DNA from: Edaphobacter sp. 12200R-103
GTDB taxonomy: Bacteria > Acidobacteriota > Terriglobia > Terriglobales > Acidobacteriaceae
Reading direction: 5' to 3'
NCBI RefSeq assembly: GCF_010093025.1
Contig: NZ_CP048114.1
Coordinates: 682,001 to 746,000 of the forward strand
Length of the DNA stretch: 64,000 bases
Below are positions 58,632-63,945 of the stretch, in pieces (positions within the stretch are counted from its first letter, which is position 1; every line of letters begins with the position of its first letter). Below the pieces are notes generated by a model, which saw nothing but the letters and a program-made list of their open reading frames with translations, was not told the DNA's origin and made no database searches. The position numbers were made by a program, and so were the translations under genes.

Positions 58632-59372
58632 TTAGTAAGCCGATTGAGAGACCGGCGGCCCGATCAGCAAGATCACGGGAGACGGACCGACATCGGTGCT
58701 CGAAAGCCGATCGAGTGTCGTGATATGGACGTGCTCGCTGGGGGTGGAGGCGCGGGAGACTGCAGTGCATGGCGTTTCCGGAGCGATGCCCGAAGAGATG
58801 AGGTCCTGCGCGAGAGTCTCGAAATTGCGCCCCGGCATGTAGATCACTAATGTGGCTTCATCAGGAAAGGCGCCTGACCAGTTTGGTGTCAGCGATACCT
58901 TTCCGGCGGCGTGATGCGCCGTCGCCAGAATCAGCTTCGAAGCACGGCTGCGATCGGTGAGCGGCGTCCGCAGGTTGGCAGCGACTGCGAAGGCCGTCGT
59001 GATTCCAGGAACAATCTCAAAGGGAATGGAGTACTCACGCAGAAAACCGATCTCTTCGGCGGCCCGGCCAAAGATAAGCGGATCGCCGGACTTGAGCCGA
59101 ATGACAGAACGGTCTGCCTTGGAGTGCTCGAGCATGAGCTGGTGAATTCCCGCCTGCGTAATACGCGGCTGCCCGCATCGTTTGCCAACAGGAATGATAT
59201 CCGCTGTCGGGCTGGCGAGATTGAGAACCTCATCGCTCACGAGATCATCCGGCAGGATGACATCGGCAGTTTTGAGCAGGTGAGCAGCGCGTAACGTCAG
59301 CAGCGCAGGATTGCCCGGACCTGCGCCGACGAGATAGACATAGCCAGATTCAGCGTCAGGAATCGAGATCAC
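58632..59372 (-). CDS. cobA: Uroporphyrinogen-III C-methyltransferase (SUMT)
   Basis: A 246-residue SAM-dependent tetrapyrrole methylase making precorrin-2: VYLVGAGPGNPALLTLRAAH at the N-terminus, DLVSDEVLNL, VGKRCGQPRITQAGI, VIRLKSGDPLIFGRAAEE and IPFEIVPGITTAFAVAANL. Its ATG overlaps the stop of the dehydrogenase gene upstream (ATGA). With that partner it makes sirohydrochlorin for the sirohaem of the nitrite/sulfite reductase encoded nearby. Confidence 0.95.
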   Translation of the reverse strand: MISIPDAESGYVYLVGAGPGNPALLTLRAAHLLKTADVILPDDLVSDEVLNLASPTADIIPVGKRCGQPRITQAGIHQLMLEHSKADRSVIRLKSGDPLIFGRAAEEIGFLREYSIPFEIVPGITTAFAVAANLRTPLTDRSRASKLILATAHHAAGKVSLTPNWSGAFPDEATLVIYMPGRNFETLAQDLISSGIAPETPCTAVSRASTPSEHVHITTLDRLSSTDVGPSPVILLIGPPVSQSAY

Positions 59373-60010
59373 GCCTTCTCCGCGGTTTGAGTGTTAGTCA
59401 GGGCGTGTTCCCGCGCCAGCAGGCGGGAAGGACACTGATCGTAGGCGCAGACCTGACGCTGGGCCAGCTCATGTAGCAGAAGCCGGCGAGACTCGTTCAG
59501 CGGCTCGGCAGCAACAACCTCACGGCGCAGATTGCCGAGATCGGTAAGCCACTCGCCAAGGTCCAGCGGCAGCTGCTCGTTCAACTCTTTCCGGAGTTGC
59601 TGGGCGAGCGCGGGAGAGTTTCCGGCAGTCGAGATGGCGATCTGCAGGTCGCCACGCCGGACGATCGAAGGGAAGTAGAAGTCGCAGAAGGGCGGATCGT
59701 CGACCGCATTACACAGAACCCCGCTGGCGGTTGCCTCAGCGAAGACAGCGCGATTGACAGCCGGATCGTTTGTAGCGGCAACGACAAGAAACGATTCCGC
59801 AAGATCGCCCGTCTGGTACCGGCGCTTGCGCAGGGTCAGATCTCCGGAGGCTGCCTGTTCGGCGATTCGGTCGCTGACCTCAGGAGCAATGACGGTGACG
59901 GCAGCATCGGCGGCGCGAAGAGAATCGATCTTGGACTCAGCCAGGTGTCCAGCGCCGATGACGAGCGCACGACGGCCAGTCAGTTTGAGAAAGAGAGGGA
60001 AGAGGGACAT
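59369..60010 (-). CDS. Precorrin-2 dehydrogenase / sirohydrochlorin ferrochelatase-like (CysG N-terminal type)
   Basis: A 213-residue protein with the NAD-binding N-terminus ALVIGAGHLAESKIDSLRAA and VTVIAPEVSD. Further conserved parts are VVAATNDPAVNRAVFAEATA, GVLCNAVDDPPFCDFYFPS and RGDLQIAISTAGNSPALAQQ with FRKELNEQL-like helices. It oxidises precorrin-2 to sirohydrochlorin and may insert iron. GGAGAAGGAG precedes the ATG. First gene of a two-gene operon with the methyltransferase. Confidence 0.9.
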   Translation of the reverse strand: MSLFPLFLKLTGRRALVIGAGHLAESKIDSLRAADAAVTVIAPEVSDRIAEQAASGDLTLRKRRYQTGDLAESFLVVAATNDPAVNRAVFAEATASGVLCNAVDDPPFCDFYFPSIVRRGDLQIAISTAGNSPALAQQLRKELNEQLPLDLGEWLTDLGNLRREVVAAEPLNESRRLLLHELAQRQVCAYDQCPSRLLAREHALTNTQTAEKA

Positions 60011-60138: not shown

Positions 60139-60453
60139 TCAGCGGTTTTCCCGGGAGCTCTTCGGCGGGGCTTCCCATACGAACAGGAACTCTTTGTTGC
60201 TCGATGTTGCGAGATTGAGGTTATTCTGCCTGCCTGCTCTGCTCAGTGCTGCCCGAATATTCTCCTTCGAGTCGGGAAGCTCTGCGAGCGGAATCTTCAG
60301 GGCCGAGCCCGGGGGAAGCTCTGTGATATCGCTAAGAAGCTGCCGGATGATCTCTTTGTGCTTTCCCTCTCTTCCTCTGGGAATATCATCCTGCAGAATA
60401 CGTTCGAACCTCATGGGTTTTTTTATCTCTTTAACTTCTTCATAGTCGCCCAT
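60139..60453 (-). CDS. Conserved hypothetical protein, small and charged
   Basis: A 104-residue soluble protein. The start at 60453 has GGAGG 5 nt upstream; 33 upstream in-frame residues are unlikely. Notable segments are MRFERILQDDIPRGREGKHK, LPPGSALKIPLAELPDSKEN and IRAALSRAGRQNNLNLATSS, ending KEFLFVWEAPP. The last parts read like a small DNA- or RNA-binding fold (a helix with Arg/Lys then a beta edge). No name is known to me. It sits upstream of the sirohaem genes on the same strand but about 130 bp away. Confidence 0.65.
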   Translation of the reverse strand: MGDYEEVKEIKKPMRFERILQDDIPRGREGKHKEIIRQLLSDITELPPGSALKIPLAELPDSKENIRAALSRAGRQNNLNLATSSNKEFLFVWEAPPKSSRENR

Positions 60454-60650
60454 AGTGTCCTCCGTTTGCGGTACCTGCGAAAAGCCAACCTCCTGACTGA
60501 CGTAGCGTAAAACTAACGCTAACGTATGGTTAATTTGATGCCAAGTTGCCACTACATGTTTTAGGTGTAAAGTTGACGTGTAAATGATTGATTCAAAATA
60601 GGTAGCAGGTTTTATTTCAATAATGATACTCTGCCGTCAGGGGTTGCCTG

Positions 60651-61106
60651 ATGACAAAAATACTTCATACGGAAGTAGTGCCGATCGAAGAGGCAAAGCG
60701 CGAGGATTCAGGCCTGGCAAGACTGGATGTCTTGGTAGTGGATGATGAGCAGACAATCGCCGATACTCTGTCCGTGATCCTCTCACGGTCGGGATTTTCC
60801 GTGCGAACGGCGTATGACGGTAAGGGTGCCTTTGAGATTGCCATGCAGAATCCTCCCCGTCTTGTGATCAGCGATGTCGTGATGCCAGAAATGACTGGCG
60901 TCGAACTGGCCATCGCCCTCAAGAGTTCGATTCCCGAATGCCAGATTCTGTTGTTTTCCGGACAGGCGGCAACAGCTGACCTTCTGGAGCAAGCTCGGGC
61001 CCAGGGACACGACTTTGCCATCGTCAGTAAGCCAATTCACCCTAAAGATCTGATTCGAAGGATCTCCGAATACCTCCAGGTAGAAAAGCCATTGACTCTG
61101 CGGTAA
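60651..61106 (+). CDS. Single-domain response regulator
   Basis: A 151-residue receiver domain with an extra N-terminal about 25 residues. Acidic pocket VLVVDDEQTI, phosphoacceptor Asp in LVISDVVMPEMTG, the Ser of LLFSGQAA and the Lys of IVSKPIHPKDL are all present. No output domain, so it works through protein contacts. No histidine kinase lies in the window. It is convergent with the reductase gene. Confidence 0.9.
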   Translation: MTKILHTEVVPIEEAKREDSGLARLDVLVVDDEQTIADTLSVILSRSGFSVRTAYDGKGAFEIAMQNPPRLVISDVVMPEMTGVELAIALKSSIPECQILLFSGQAATADLLEQARAQGHDFAIVSKPIHPKDLIRRISEYLQVEKPLTLR

Positions 61107-61225: not shown

Positions 61226-62950
61226 TTATTCTGCCGGCGCGAGGCGGGCGGCGCCAACGGGAGGCGCATCCCGTTCGACTGGCGTAAGAACCTCACCGGC
61301 AAGCTGTGCGCGCAGGGTGCTGTCGTCGGTACGGTCGAAGTAACTGCGCAGATCCTCACCGGGAGTACGAGCTTCAAGATACGCGTTCAGCAGGCGTTCG
61401 ATTGCGTCCGGCACGTCTGTCGCCGCCGCGCGATAGCCCAACTGCCGTGCGGTACGGGCATACTTGCCCACGGAGCCACCGACGCAGAAGAAGAAGGCGT
61501 CGACCATCTGGCCGTCCTTCTTGATCTTCTTGCCCTCCAGGCCAATATCTGCGATCCAGTGCTGTCCGCAGGAGTTGGTGCAACCCGTGATGTGGAGGCG
61601 AATCTGTTGATCGAAGCCAGGCAGGCGATCCTCCAGCTCAGCGACCAACCACTTGTTGAAACCCTTGGTCTCTGCAATGGCCAGCTTGCAGAACTCCGTC
61701 CCGGTGCAGGCGATCGCTCCACGCCAGAAGGGCGAGACGTCGACGTTGAAGCCGAGCGAATTCAACTCAACGACCAGAGCAGCGGTTTCGCGGTTGGGTA
61801 CGTTGACGATCAGGATGTTCTGTCCGATCGTCGTGCGCAGATTGCCGTCACCATACTTTTCGGCTAGCTCAGCCAGCTTCAGAAGCTGATCGCCGGAGAC
61901 ACGGCCGTTGAGAACGCTGGCTCCTACCGTGGACAGACCGGGCTGACGCTGAGGAGTGATACCGATATGGTCGCGGTAGATGTCGGCAGGAATCTCTTCC
62001 ATGCTGACCGGACTGGGATCGAGCTTGTACCCCAGCTTTTCTTCGAGAGCTTCAAGGAAAGACTCGGCGGTCCAGCCAAACTTCATGAAGAGGTATTTGA
62101 TGCGGGCGCGGGTACGGTTCTCGCGAAGGATTCCTGCATCCCGGAAGACTTCGGCGGTGGCCGTGGCTACCGCAAGTGCCTGGTCCTGGCGGACGAAGGC
62201 CGGGATGCGCACGGCAATGTTTGGCTCATTGGACAGGCCTCCACCCACGCGTAGGGTAAAGCCGATCTCCTCTTTGCCGTCGACGGTGCGCTTGATGGCG
62301 GTGAGGGCAGCGTCGTTGATCTCTGGGAAGCTGCACCAGACCGGGCATCCGGAGACGGTGAACTTGAACTTGCGGGGAAGATTGACAAAATCGGTGTTGC
62401 CGTTGAGCCTGTGCGCGATCTCGATGGCGAGAGGGCTGGCATCGATAAGTTCGTGACCATCCAGACCGGCCAGGGGGCATCCGGTAACGTTACGGACGAC
62501 GTCGCCGCAGGCGCCCTTGGTGCTGAGTCCGACGGCGTTGAGGGCGTCGACGACTTCGATCAAGTCCTGAATGGTGAGCCAGTGAAGCTGAATGTTCTGC
62601 CGGGTCGTAATGTCGGCAAGGTTGTTGGCGTACTTTTTGGTTACTTCGCCGATAACGCGAGCCTGAGCGCTGGTCAGGATTCCATTGGGCAGCGCAATCC
62701 GCATCATGAAGTATTCGGTGGCCTTGCCTTCGCCGCCGCTTCCGCCGGTCACTCCCTTTCCATCGCCCTGGCTGTAGACCCCCCACCAGCGGAAGTACAA
62801 GGCCCAGTCGGAAGGAATCGAATCCCAACCCTGACGAGCAAACTCGCGTACTTCCTCCCATGCTTCCCAGGGATTTTTAGCGAGCTTAAGTCGTTCCGTT
62901 TTCTGGGCTTTGGTCTCTTTGACGGCGGCTGGGGCCGGAGTGGTGGACAT
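61226..62950 (-). CDS. Sirohaem/4Fe-4S nitrite or sulfite reductase (NirA/SirA type)
   Basis: A 574-residue assimilatory reductase. The two Cys pairs ligating the coupled 4Fe-4S cluster and sirohaem are in CTGTEFCKLAI and GCTNSCGQHWIAD. Other family parts are ITTRQNIQLHWLTIQDL, NVTGCPLAGLDGHE, KFKFTVSGCPVWCSFPEIND, and NLRTTIGQNILIVNVPN. Ferredoxin is the usual donor. Nitrite versus sulfite cannot be decided from sequence by eye. The start at 62950 has AAGGA 9 nt upstream. The 185-nt leader encodes a cysteine-rich peptide followed by a terminator, which argues that sulfur supply controls the gene and thus favours sulfite. Confidence 0.93.
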   Translation of the reverse strand: MSTTPAPAAVKETKAQKTERLKLAKNPWEAWEEVREFARQGWDSIPSDWALYFRWWGVYSQGDGKGVTGGSGGEGKATEYFMMRIALPNGILTSAQARVIGEVTKKYANNLADITTRQNIQLHWLTIQDLIEVVDALNAVGLSTKGACGDVVRNVTGCPLAGLDGHELIDASPLAIEIAHRLNGNTDFVNLPRKFKFTVSGCPVWCSFPEINDAALTAIKRTVDGKEEIGFTLRVGGGLSNEPNIAVRIPAFVRQDQALAVATATAEVFRDAGILRENRTRARIKYLFMKFGWTAESFLEALEEKLGYKLDPSPVSMEEIPADIYRDHIGITPQRQPGLSTVGASVLNGRVSGDQLLKLAELAEKYGDGNLRTTIGQNILIVNVPNRETAALVVELNSLGFNVDVSPFWRGAIACTGTEFCKLAIAETKGFNKWLVAELEDRLPGFDQQIRLHITGCTNSCGQHWIADIGLEGKKIKKDGQMVDAFFFCVGGSVGKYARTARQLGYRAAATDVPDAIERLLNAYLEARTPGEDLRSYFDRTDDSTLRAQLAGEVLTPVERDAPPVGAARLAPAE

Positions 62951-62983
62951 TGATAGAATCCTTTGGCTTGGAATTGCGGCGGT

Positions 62984-63010
62984 AATAAAAATCCCACTCG
63001 CTGGAGTGGG
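62984..63010 (-). terminator. Intrinsic terminator in the reductase leader (candidate attenuator)
   Basis: On the reverse strand CCCACTC-CAGC-GAGTGGG is followed by ATTTTTATT. It lies 34 nt upstream of the reductase ATG and 39 nt after the leader-peptide stop, so transcripts from the upstream promoter must pass it to reach the gene. Confidence 0.8.
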
Positions 63011-63048
63011 CGTTGGCGACTTGCCTGAGGGTCGCAGATCGGAAGGAC

Positions 63049-63135
63049 CTACGAAGCAGGGCAGAGACGACAGCGCACCCGTTCGCAACAACACATGCGA
63101 CAGGAGGAGAGAAGCTGGATGCGGTCGAAAGCCAT
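63049..63135 (-). CDS. Cysteine-rich 28-residue leader peptide
   Basis: ATG at 63135 opens a 28-codon frame ending in TAG. The second half reads SSCRMCCCERVRCRLCPAS, with six Cys codons (TGT, TGT, TGT, TGC, TGT, TGC), three of them consecutive. No ribosome-binding site precedes it. Instead the -10 box ends 6 nt before the ATG, so the transcript probably starts at or next to the A of ATG and is translated as a leaderless mRNA. A terminator hairpin lies between it and the sirohaem reductase gene. This is the layout of a cysteine-tRNA-sensing attenuator; similar Cys-containing leaderless peptides are known before sulfur genes in actinobacteria. Ribosomes stalling at the Cys run would alter folding of the downstream RNA and allow read-through. 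The antiterminator partner is not obvious by eye. The coding claim rests on the frame, promoter geometry and context. Confidence 0.7.
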   Translation of the reverse strand: MAFDRIQLLSSCRMCCCERVRCRLCPAS

Positions 63136-63141
63136 GCTTAA

Positions 63142-63170
63142 AGTATGGCGGTATGGAAGGTAAGAGTCAA
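63142..63170 (-). promoter_or_regulatory. Promoter of the leader peptide and reductase transcript
   Basis: Reverse strand TTGACT (63165-63170), 17-bp spacer, CATACT (63142-63147), then 6 nt to the leader ATG. The distance predicts a start site on the ATG. Confidence 0.7.
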
Positions 63171-63270: not shown

Positions 63271-63945
63271 CTACTCCGCAGCAGACAGGGACTGTTTATG
63301 GCGGACGTCGGAGCCGCGCACCCAGAAGATCACATCTTCGGCGATATTCGTGGCGTGATCCGCGGATCGCTCCAGATTCCGGGAGACGATGATGGCGTTG
63401 AGTGCCTGTGCGCTGATCTCGGGCTGCTGCTGCATCAGCTGAACCATCTCGGCCTGAACGTCCCGGTTCATGTCATCCACTTCATCGTCCATGGCGAGGA
63501 CCTTCTCCGCGAGCCTGGCGTCGGCCTCCAGAAGAGCCTGAAGCGCAGTACGGATCATGATGCCCACCTTTTCGCCCATATCGGGAATGTCGATAGGGAG
63601 CTCGATCAAAGGGACGTCCGTAAGCGATTGCACCCGTTGAGCGATATTGGAAGCCTGATCGCCGATACGCTCAAGGTCGCCGTTGATTTTGATGACGGCA
63701 AGAATGAAGCGAAGGTCGATCGCCATGGGCTGCTCCTTCGCCAGCAGATCGTAGGCCAGCTCATCTACGTCGCGCTCAGCGGCATTGATAGCTTCTTCGA
63801 TCTCCTTCACGTGCTCGCAGAGGCTGACATTGCGGGTCAGATAGGACTCCAGCGCAAGCGAGAGGGCCTGCTGGGAGAGGGCCGCCATGGCGAGAAGCTT
63901 GTCCTTGAGCGCGGCAAGCTGCTGATGAAAGTTGATGCGCGGCAT
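63271..63945 (-). CDS. phoU: Phosphate transport system regulator PhoU
   Basis: A 224-residue all-helical protein with the two PhoU repeats: INAAERDVDELAYDLLAKEQ with MAIDLRFILAVIKINGDLER in the first, and MDDEVDDMNRDVQAEMVQLM with IIVSRNLERSADHATNIAED in the second. Metal-binding ExxxD and DxxE motifs are present. It links the Pst transporter to the PhoR kinase and represses the Pho regulon in high phosphate. pst genes would be expected just beyond the right edge. Confidence 0.95.
   Translation of the reverse strand: MPRINFHQQLAALKDKLLAMAALSQQALSLALESYLTRNVSLCEHVKEIEEAINAAERDVDELAYDLLAKEQPMAIDLRFILAVIKINGDLERIGDQASNIAQRVQSLTDVPLIELPIDIPDMGEKVGIMIRTALQALLEADARLAEKVLAMDDEVDDMNRDVQAEMVQLMQQQPEISAQALNAIIVSRNLERSADHATNIAEDVIFWVRGSDVRHKQSLSAAE

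Follow-up and report, generated by a model that had tools for sequence, protein, structure and literature searches.

A conserved Cys-codon leader, very likely a leaderless transcription attenuator, upstream of a sulfite-type sirohaem reductase gene in Edaphobacter and other Terriglobia

The short Cys-rich leader that precedes a sirohaem reductase gene in Edaphobacter sp. 12200R-103 is very likely a ribosome-mediated, cysteine-responsive transcription attenuator, and the reductase, which would supply sulfide for cysteine, is very probably switched on only when cysteine is short. The element lies in the window, which denotes here the whole 64,000-nucleotide stretch of DNA that was analysed, and is one of at least three such leaders in the genome of this strain. 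Its sequence anatomy, conservation, pairing potential and gene context were seen directly. From these we infer a mechanism with a leaderless start, ribosome stalling, termination and cysteine as the signal. Transcription would start at or beside the leader ATG, and a ribosome would load on the 5' end without a Shine–Dalgarno site. With ample Cys-tRNA, the ribosome would pass the Cys codons to the stop codon and cover the initial segment of the leader; the hairpin at 63010-62993 would form, and RNA polymerase would halt upstream of the reductase. Under cysteine shortage, the ribosome would stall at Cys12–Cys17, and the RNA behind it (63080-63008) would fold as an antiterminator holding the 5' arm of the terminator, so that the polymerase would continue into the sulfite reductase gene. 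Control would be exerted by cysteine itself, as an earlier note on this DNA had supposed.

The earlier note had described a promoter, a frame of 28 codons, six of them Cys, a hairpin, a ribosome site and a reductase at positions 62951-63170. All of these were present as described and the coordinates were right, with everything on the minus strand, which the note had left unsaid (Table 1). The end of the -10 box (63142) was separated by 6 nt from the leader ATG at 63135. The leader peptide, MAFDRIQLLSSCRMCCCERVRCRLCPAS, carried Cys at codons 12, 15, 16, 17, 22 and 25 and ended with a TAG stop codon at 63051-63049; its main Cys run (codons 15-17 of 28) ended 11 codons ahead of the stop. By themselves, the signals of the window were close to chance, as 3 promoter-like sites were counted in a 6.5-kb region against 1.8 expected, and 9 terminator-like sites in the same region against 6.0 expected; they become significant through the comparative data from relatives. 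No Rfam 15 family matched the window leader at gathering scores, and no Rfam 15 match was obtained up to E 5 in L001, L134, L003, L033, L045 and L067; a riboswitch was rejected on this ground.

Table 1. Positions of features at the reductase locus of Edaphobacter sp. 12200R-103 (window numbering) and of small frames at YeiH-like loci (numbering of the named record)
Feature	Position	Strand	Details
Leader promoter TTGACT-17-CATACT	63142..63170	(-)	-35 TTGACT 63170-63165; -10 CATACT 63147-63142
Leader peptide frame, presumably leaderless	63049..63135	(-)	28 codons + stop; six Cys codons
TGT TGT TGC run, presumed stall site	63085..63093	(-)	Cys 15-17; Cys12 at 63102-63100
Predicted antiterminator hairpin	63008..63080	(-)	GGGTG 63080-63076 with CGCCC 63012-63008
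Intrinsic terminator CCCACTC-CAGC-GAGTGGG + ATTTTTATT	62984..63010	(-)	hairpin 63010-62993; -10.9 kcal/mol
AAAGGA, reductase ribosome-binding site	62959..62964	(-)	8 nt 5' of reductase ATG at 62950
Sirohaem reductase, NirA/SirA kind	61226..62950	(-)	sulfite-type residues Lys196, Cys148, Tyr59
phoU	63271..63945	(-)	next gene upstream, same strand; outside the switch
Sirohaem cofactor gene, CysG N-terminal type	59369-60010	(-)	downstream of reductase
Uroporphyrinogen-III methyltransferase gene	58632-59372	(-)	downstream of reductase
Small frame at YeiH-like locus	L187:1210-1326	(+)	
Small frame at YeiH-like locus	L037:3162-3040	(-)	
Small frame at YeiH-like locus	L063:2401-2523	(+)	

Downstream of the reductase, a strong terminator-like hairpin of 11 pairs was seen immediately 3' of the gene (window 61205-61180, minus strand), which suggests a transcript carrying this single gene. 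The region separating the reductase from the genes for sirohaem synthesis held a response-regulator gene (window 60651-61106, plus strand) and a 137-codon frame without an NCBIfam match (window 60139-60552, minus strand).

Conservation was assessed upstream of the reductase in relatives, which comprised 80 named genome contigs (the best 80 of 595), 30 loci given by a family search of 200 genomes and 20 further stretches from that search. A match of some kind, counting nitrite-type paralogs, was obtained in 152 of the 200 genomes. Of 132 upstream regions, the paralog L002 and six duplicates (WIN, L086, L088, L097, L106 and L112) were taken out, which left 125, the window's own included. A leader was scored where an ATG-started frame of 7-60 codons, no more than 330 nt from the reductase, had at least three Cys in 8 codons. 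Such a Cys-cluster frame was found in 97 of the 125 distinct upstream regions (relatives including the best 80 of 595), compared with 5 of 125 on the opposite strand and 3.8% of 6250 shuffles. Two of the 97 matches, L102 and L117, look false, being 9-codon frames approximately 310 nt upstream; in the genome of the latter (G062), a cysD match and a cysH-like match lay upstream of the reductase on the same strand. Under a looser criterion (ATG or GTG, within 450 nt), 14 of 14 further genomes of the same family had the frame, L172 and L177 among them being repeats of the records L072 and L067.

The non-Cys residues of the leaders were hardly kept and differed widely, and the lengths ranged from 12 to over 30 codons. 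In 20 aligned Edaphobacter-like leaders, selected from the 95 of the terminator analysis with L021 left out, Cys occupied codon 12 in 20/20, codon 15 in 19/19, codon 16 in 20/20 and, less strictly, codon 25 in 19/20. TGT and TGC replaced one another at codons 12, 17 and 25. Third-position bias was absent overall in these leaders (majority shares of 0.67, 0.68 and 0.66 at positions 1-3), as is expected where RNA structure is a further constraint on a sequence. The earlier note had proposed conservation in relatives as a check and had named the joint lack of a conserved frame and of third-position bias as evidence against it; the bias is absent, but the frame, the Cys codons, the promoter spacing and the hairpin were all kept.

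The 28 upstream regions without a leader by the ATG criterion were of several kinds. Five contained a GTG-started Cys frame (L011, L015, L076, L108 and L119), and in L063 the leader preceded a YeiH-like gene heading a YeiH-like/reductase/sirohaem cluster. Six others (L024, L025, L110, L111, L122 and L126) had another open frame of 209-226 codons ending 20-48 nt before the reductase, and the reductase may be inside an operon there because of this proximity. In L110, L111 and L122, that frame stopped approximately 45 nt before the reductase, the one in L110 ending like PhoU, and the reductase may be under a different promoter. Ten were unexplained (L014, L016, L017, L079, L094, L096, L100, L116, L123 and L127), of which L014, L016, L017, L079 and L100 still had a GCCCA- or ACCCA-type hairpin with a T-run. 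The remaining six were all of the Rokubacteria/Methylomirabilota relatives (L064, L077, L078, L080, L081 and L082). Moreover, the frame was found in 0 of 6 acidobacterial relatives of the reductase that do not belong to the class (31-39% identity over the stretch); its absence from both sets of six fits an origin independent of mycobacteria. The reductases of L017 and L037, which were 61-67% identical to the Edaphobacter protein, occurred in records titled Verrucomicrobia and Opitutia and are perhaps mis-binned contigs.

The spacing of the promoter was analysed in 99 leaders with a cluster of at least three Cys in 8 codons and a stop codon 75-230 nt upstream. A promoter matching at least 8 of 12 positions and ending 4-8 nt before an in-frame ATG or GTG was present in 72 of them, with 38 promoters at 6 nt and 28 at 7 nt, compared with 1.7% of 4950 matched draws. 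With the stricter requirement of 9/12, the counts were 32 of 99 leaders and 0 in the controls. In the base frequencies of 20 single-ATG leaders, TTG stood at approximately -36 to -33, and TAnnnT ended approximately 6-7 nt before the ATG. It is from this conserved spacing that we infer the leaderless start. On average, 13.3% of genes in three Acidobacteria genomes have been predicted to be leaderless, according to a table in PMC3160421.

The terminator was analysed in 95 leaders, as L033, L040, L060 and L074 had no promoter-like site and were dropped. In 94 of these 95, a hairpin with a T-run came after the stop codon of the leader. At -9 kcal/mol or better it was found in 94 of 95, compared with 74 of 285 shuffles, and at -12 kcal/mol or better in 81 of 95, compared with 46 of 285; at -5 kcal/mol or better, the shuffles reached 134 of 285.

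Folding was examined in 94 leaders, L114 being dropped for want of a hairpin. Full-length minimum-energy folds favoured the terminator, which was kept in 87 of the 94 free RNAs; with the whole hairpin present, at least one stall state broke it up in 13 of 94, and every stall state did so in 2 of 94. Therefore, control would have to be kinetic, with the antiterminator forming first. Control of the trp attenuator is likewise kinetic. Partial RNAs, folded before the 3' arm of the hairpin is made, were chosen after the full-length folds and are more favourable to the attenuation reading. In these, the 5' arm of the terminator gained a mean of 7.7 kcal/mol of pairing with upstream RNA when the ribosome was at the first Cys of the cluster, 6.2 kcal/mol at the last Cys and 1.8 kcal/mol at the stop codon, the shuffles giving 3.9 kcal/mol. 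A gain of at least 4 kcal/mol was seen in 79 of 94 stalled compared with 10 of 94 released leaders, and for 66 of the 94 the stalled gain was equalled by no more than 10% of 40 shuffles. The antiterminator that the earlier note had asked about agrees with the stalled pairing gain over shuffled sequences and disagrees with the full-length folds.

In the case of the window, the predicted antiterminator pairs GGGTG with CGCCC, takes three bases of the 5' arm of the terminator, and encloses an inner helix and an apical hairpin. The gain was modest, at -4.7 kcal/mol at the first Cys, -0.4 at the last and 0 at the stop codon, compared with a shuffle mean of -2.2 kcal/mol and 7.5% of 40 shuffles as good. 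Long antiterminator-like hairpins were recognised by eye in 20 leaders, in several of which the pairing stopped at the edge of the arm. RNAalifold gave no consensus structure for the antiterminator segments of 16 Edaphobacter-like leaders.

A second clade, of Sulfotelmatobacter-titled and related Terriglobia, had leaders that often end in SGAGRLLT. The codons of this tail, UCUGGCGCGGGG.., duplicate the 3' arm of the terminator, CUGGCGGUGGG (CUGGCG), and can pair with the 5' arm, CCCACCGCCAG. The alignment of this clade (A3) held 16 of 19 loci, the search having missed L040 and L079 and matched L033 on the wrong strand. The terminator paired in 97.9% of cells, and four of its pairs were changed on both sides, which was reached by 0 of 500 shuffles. 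The antiterminator paired in 93.2% of cells compared with 26-54% when slid (n = 16), a comparison favoured by the structure having been taken from one member. Shuffled letters paired as well (93.1%) because the alignment columns hardly vary, and no compensatory changes were seen in the antiterminator. The z-scores were -2.8 to -4.0 for three antiterminator folds and -5.4 for one terminator fold. Most simply, the conserved SGAGRLLT tail reflects conservation of RNA and not of protein.

The reductase was nearest to M. tuberculosis NirA/SirA (1zj8, E 7.5e-89), followed by plant nitrite reductases. It scored below the NCBIfam cut-offs for NirA (NF007126, 377.9 vs 523) and nitrite reductase (NF007125, 374.1 vs 594), while the paralog passed NF007126 (797 vs 523). 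It was barely above the cut-off for CobG, precorrin-3B synthase (TIGR02435, 235.4 vs 234.8), and this score does not discriminate here because the NirA-type paralog passes TIGR02435 as well, with 357. Lys196, the second Lys of LPRK-x-K, was Lys in 109 of 109 loci (L003-L111, tblastn) and Asn in the paralog; plant nitrite reductases have Asn at this position. Moreover, Tyr59 and Cys148 stood where NirA/SirA of M. tuberculosis has its Tyr-Cys pair; they were kept in 109 of 109 loci (L003-L111), and the paralog had Phe and Gly. The nitrite-type paralog had no leader. Together with the leader shared with cysDNH, these residues support sulfite as the probable substrate, short of proof. The preference for sulfite over nitrite, which the earlier note had drawn from the leader, gained support from the residues independently of it.

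The anatomy was specific enough for such leaders to be found by a simple scan, in which a promoter (8/12), leaderless spacing and a Cys cluster were combined on both strands. The window, two stretches of the same genome and the loci of 80 named relatives (705,885 bases) were scanned. The relatives' loci gave 47 matches, 45 before the reductase and 2 before YeiH-like genes. Edaphobacter sp. 12200R-103 gave one in the window and one in the cys stretch, and none was obtained in the 12 kb around the nitrite-type paralog.

The leader of the cys stretch, MASFAQRACCCCRMLPCPCACCCR, precedes the CysD, CysN and CysH genes. This leader (L134:9634-9560, minus strand; G000:C1 ~2247633) had 10 Cys among 24 residues and ended in CCCR. 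After it came a hairpin that was long but imperfect and stopped 8 nt short of the gene, with no convincing terminator, and because of this lack it may use translation or Rho-dependent control. In a cysD search of 80 genomes, 32 had a match, and 28 of 30 loci were read, the weak matches L164 and L165 being left out. A Cys-cluster frame was found in 22 of the 28 cysD upstream regions, by a looser criterion than for the reductase and as a count without a separate control. A terminator was in the usual place in 13 of the 22, and the leader of the genome under study was not among them. ATP sulfurylase (PF01747) had no match in this genome, CysD/CysN being present instead.

The two scan-matched YeiH-like genes fitted TIGR00698 (YeiH family) below the cut-off. 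In L063 the gene started approximately 300 nt after the leader ATG, and in L037 approximately 730 nt after it, with two shorter frames between. The YeiH-like gene of Edaphobacter sp. 12200R-103 scored 112.6 bits against the cut-off of 232.6. Its leader consisted of TTGACG-17-TACCCT, 8 nt, ATG, MGLMHIAACNCCPCCMDGCCCCAELSHA, and a hairpin ending in the T-run CGUGGGUUUUU; a stricter scan listed neither promoter nor terminator for it. No Cys-cluster frame was found upstream, on the gene's strand, at the SulP locus L186 or at six of eight cysK/M-like places (L188-L193, with L194 and L195 left out).

If a like device acts at cysD-cysN-cysH and at the YeiH-like locus, then sulfate activation would be switched together with sulfite reduction, and probably with a sulfur permease too, as a small sulfur regulon of Terriglobia. 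A wider proposal, to which we give an even chance, is that Terriglobia run cysDNH, sirA and the YeiH-like transporter mainly through dispersed leaderless Cys-codon transcription attenuators. These would make up a cysteine regulon that spans several operons and has no regulator protein of its own, independent of mycobacteria in origin, with terminator-containing and terminator-free versions in one genome.

The principle is already known from mycobacteria. Shell et al. (2015; PMC4633059) describe leaderless polycysteine short ORFs with contiguous Cys codons before cysteine and sulfur genes, including nirA/Msmeg_4527 of the same reductase family. The earlier note had named leaderless Cys peptides before actinobacterial sulfur genes as known. 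Canestrari et al. (2020) is cited in part of PMC9031893 for attenuation dependent on cysteine availability, and in part of PMC13236596 for translation attenuation in M. smegmatis. By analogy, the ribosome on the Terriglobia leader, whether stalled or moving, would alter access to the ribosome-binding site of the reductase, the hairpin being incidental. This mycobacterial precedent before the same gene family and the cysD leader without a convincing terminator speak for such translation attenuation, but hairpins with T-runs sit at a similar place in 94 of 95 leaders and covary in one clade, and the AAAGGA of the window lies outside the hairpin; we therefore consider it improbable. Portions of PMC1262725 describe Mycobacterium Cys leader peptides with Cys runs near the stop codon and without conserved hairpin terminators, whereas the Terriglobia leaders have a conserved terminator and a possible antiterminator. 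A Cys run near the stop is not seen in the window leader but is present, as CCCR, in the cysD leader.

That the frame instead encodes a small Cys-rich, metal- or redox-binding protein acting in trans, with the terminator as its own gene end subject to partial read-through, would suit the very high Cys content, which is extreme in the cysD leader. This is very unlikely, since the non-Cys residues and the lengths are so variable, the SGAGRLLT tail is accounted for by RNA pairing, and the scan matches sit before sulfur genes. Control through Rho, or simple polarity, in which the leader would serve to couple translation, would agree with the cysD leaders that have no intrinsic terminator, but such a terminator is nearly universal behind the reductase leader, and this alternative is rated slightly lower still. 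Finally, chance could have placed a spurious frame, promoter and hairpin in front of the gene. The site counts of the window alone are close to expectation, but the conservation and controls across relatives contradict this reading, which is scarcely credible.

Classical amino-acid attenuators (trp, his and leu) have, as is proposed for Terriglobia, a leader peptide with regulatory codons and alternative antiterminator and terminator structures; the Terriglobia leader differs from them in its apparent leaderless initiation and in cysteine. In PMC8632094, the uORFC-8-2 motif before cysS of Rhodobacterales has likewise been predicted to attenuate transcription through the ribosome, with Cys codons in tandem and a U-run at the end. 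It differs in gene, phylum and structure and usually has Cys at uORF codons 14-15, and the passages on it mention no leaderless start. According to PMC2965389, hardly any of the attenuators predicted in Acidobacteria has been given a function, and no description of such a device in Acidobacteria was found in the open-access literature. For Acidobacteriota, a phylum common in soil, the attenuator would be a functioning amino-acid switch. It would also show that sensing through leaderless Cys codons occurs again beyond Actinobacteria, there acting on a terminator and not on start-site control. The anatomy of such leaders may also help to tell which substrate a NirA-like reductase uses.

In all three YeiH-like loci examined, a frame of 38-40 codons was seen between the terminator of the Cys leader and the transporter gene (Table 1). 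It had one hydrophobic stretch, with the endings ..LIPPIGF, ..LIPPIKW and ..LKHIPW compared by eye, and is perhaps an unannotated small subunit.
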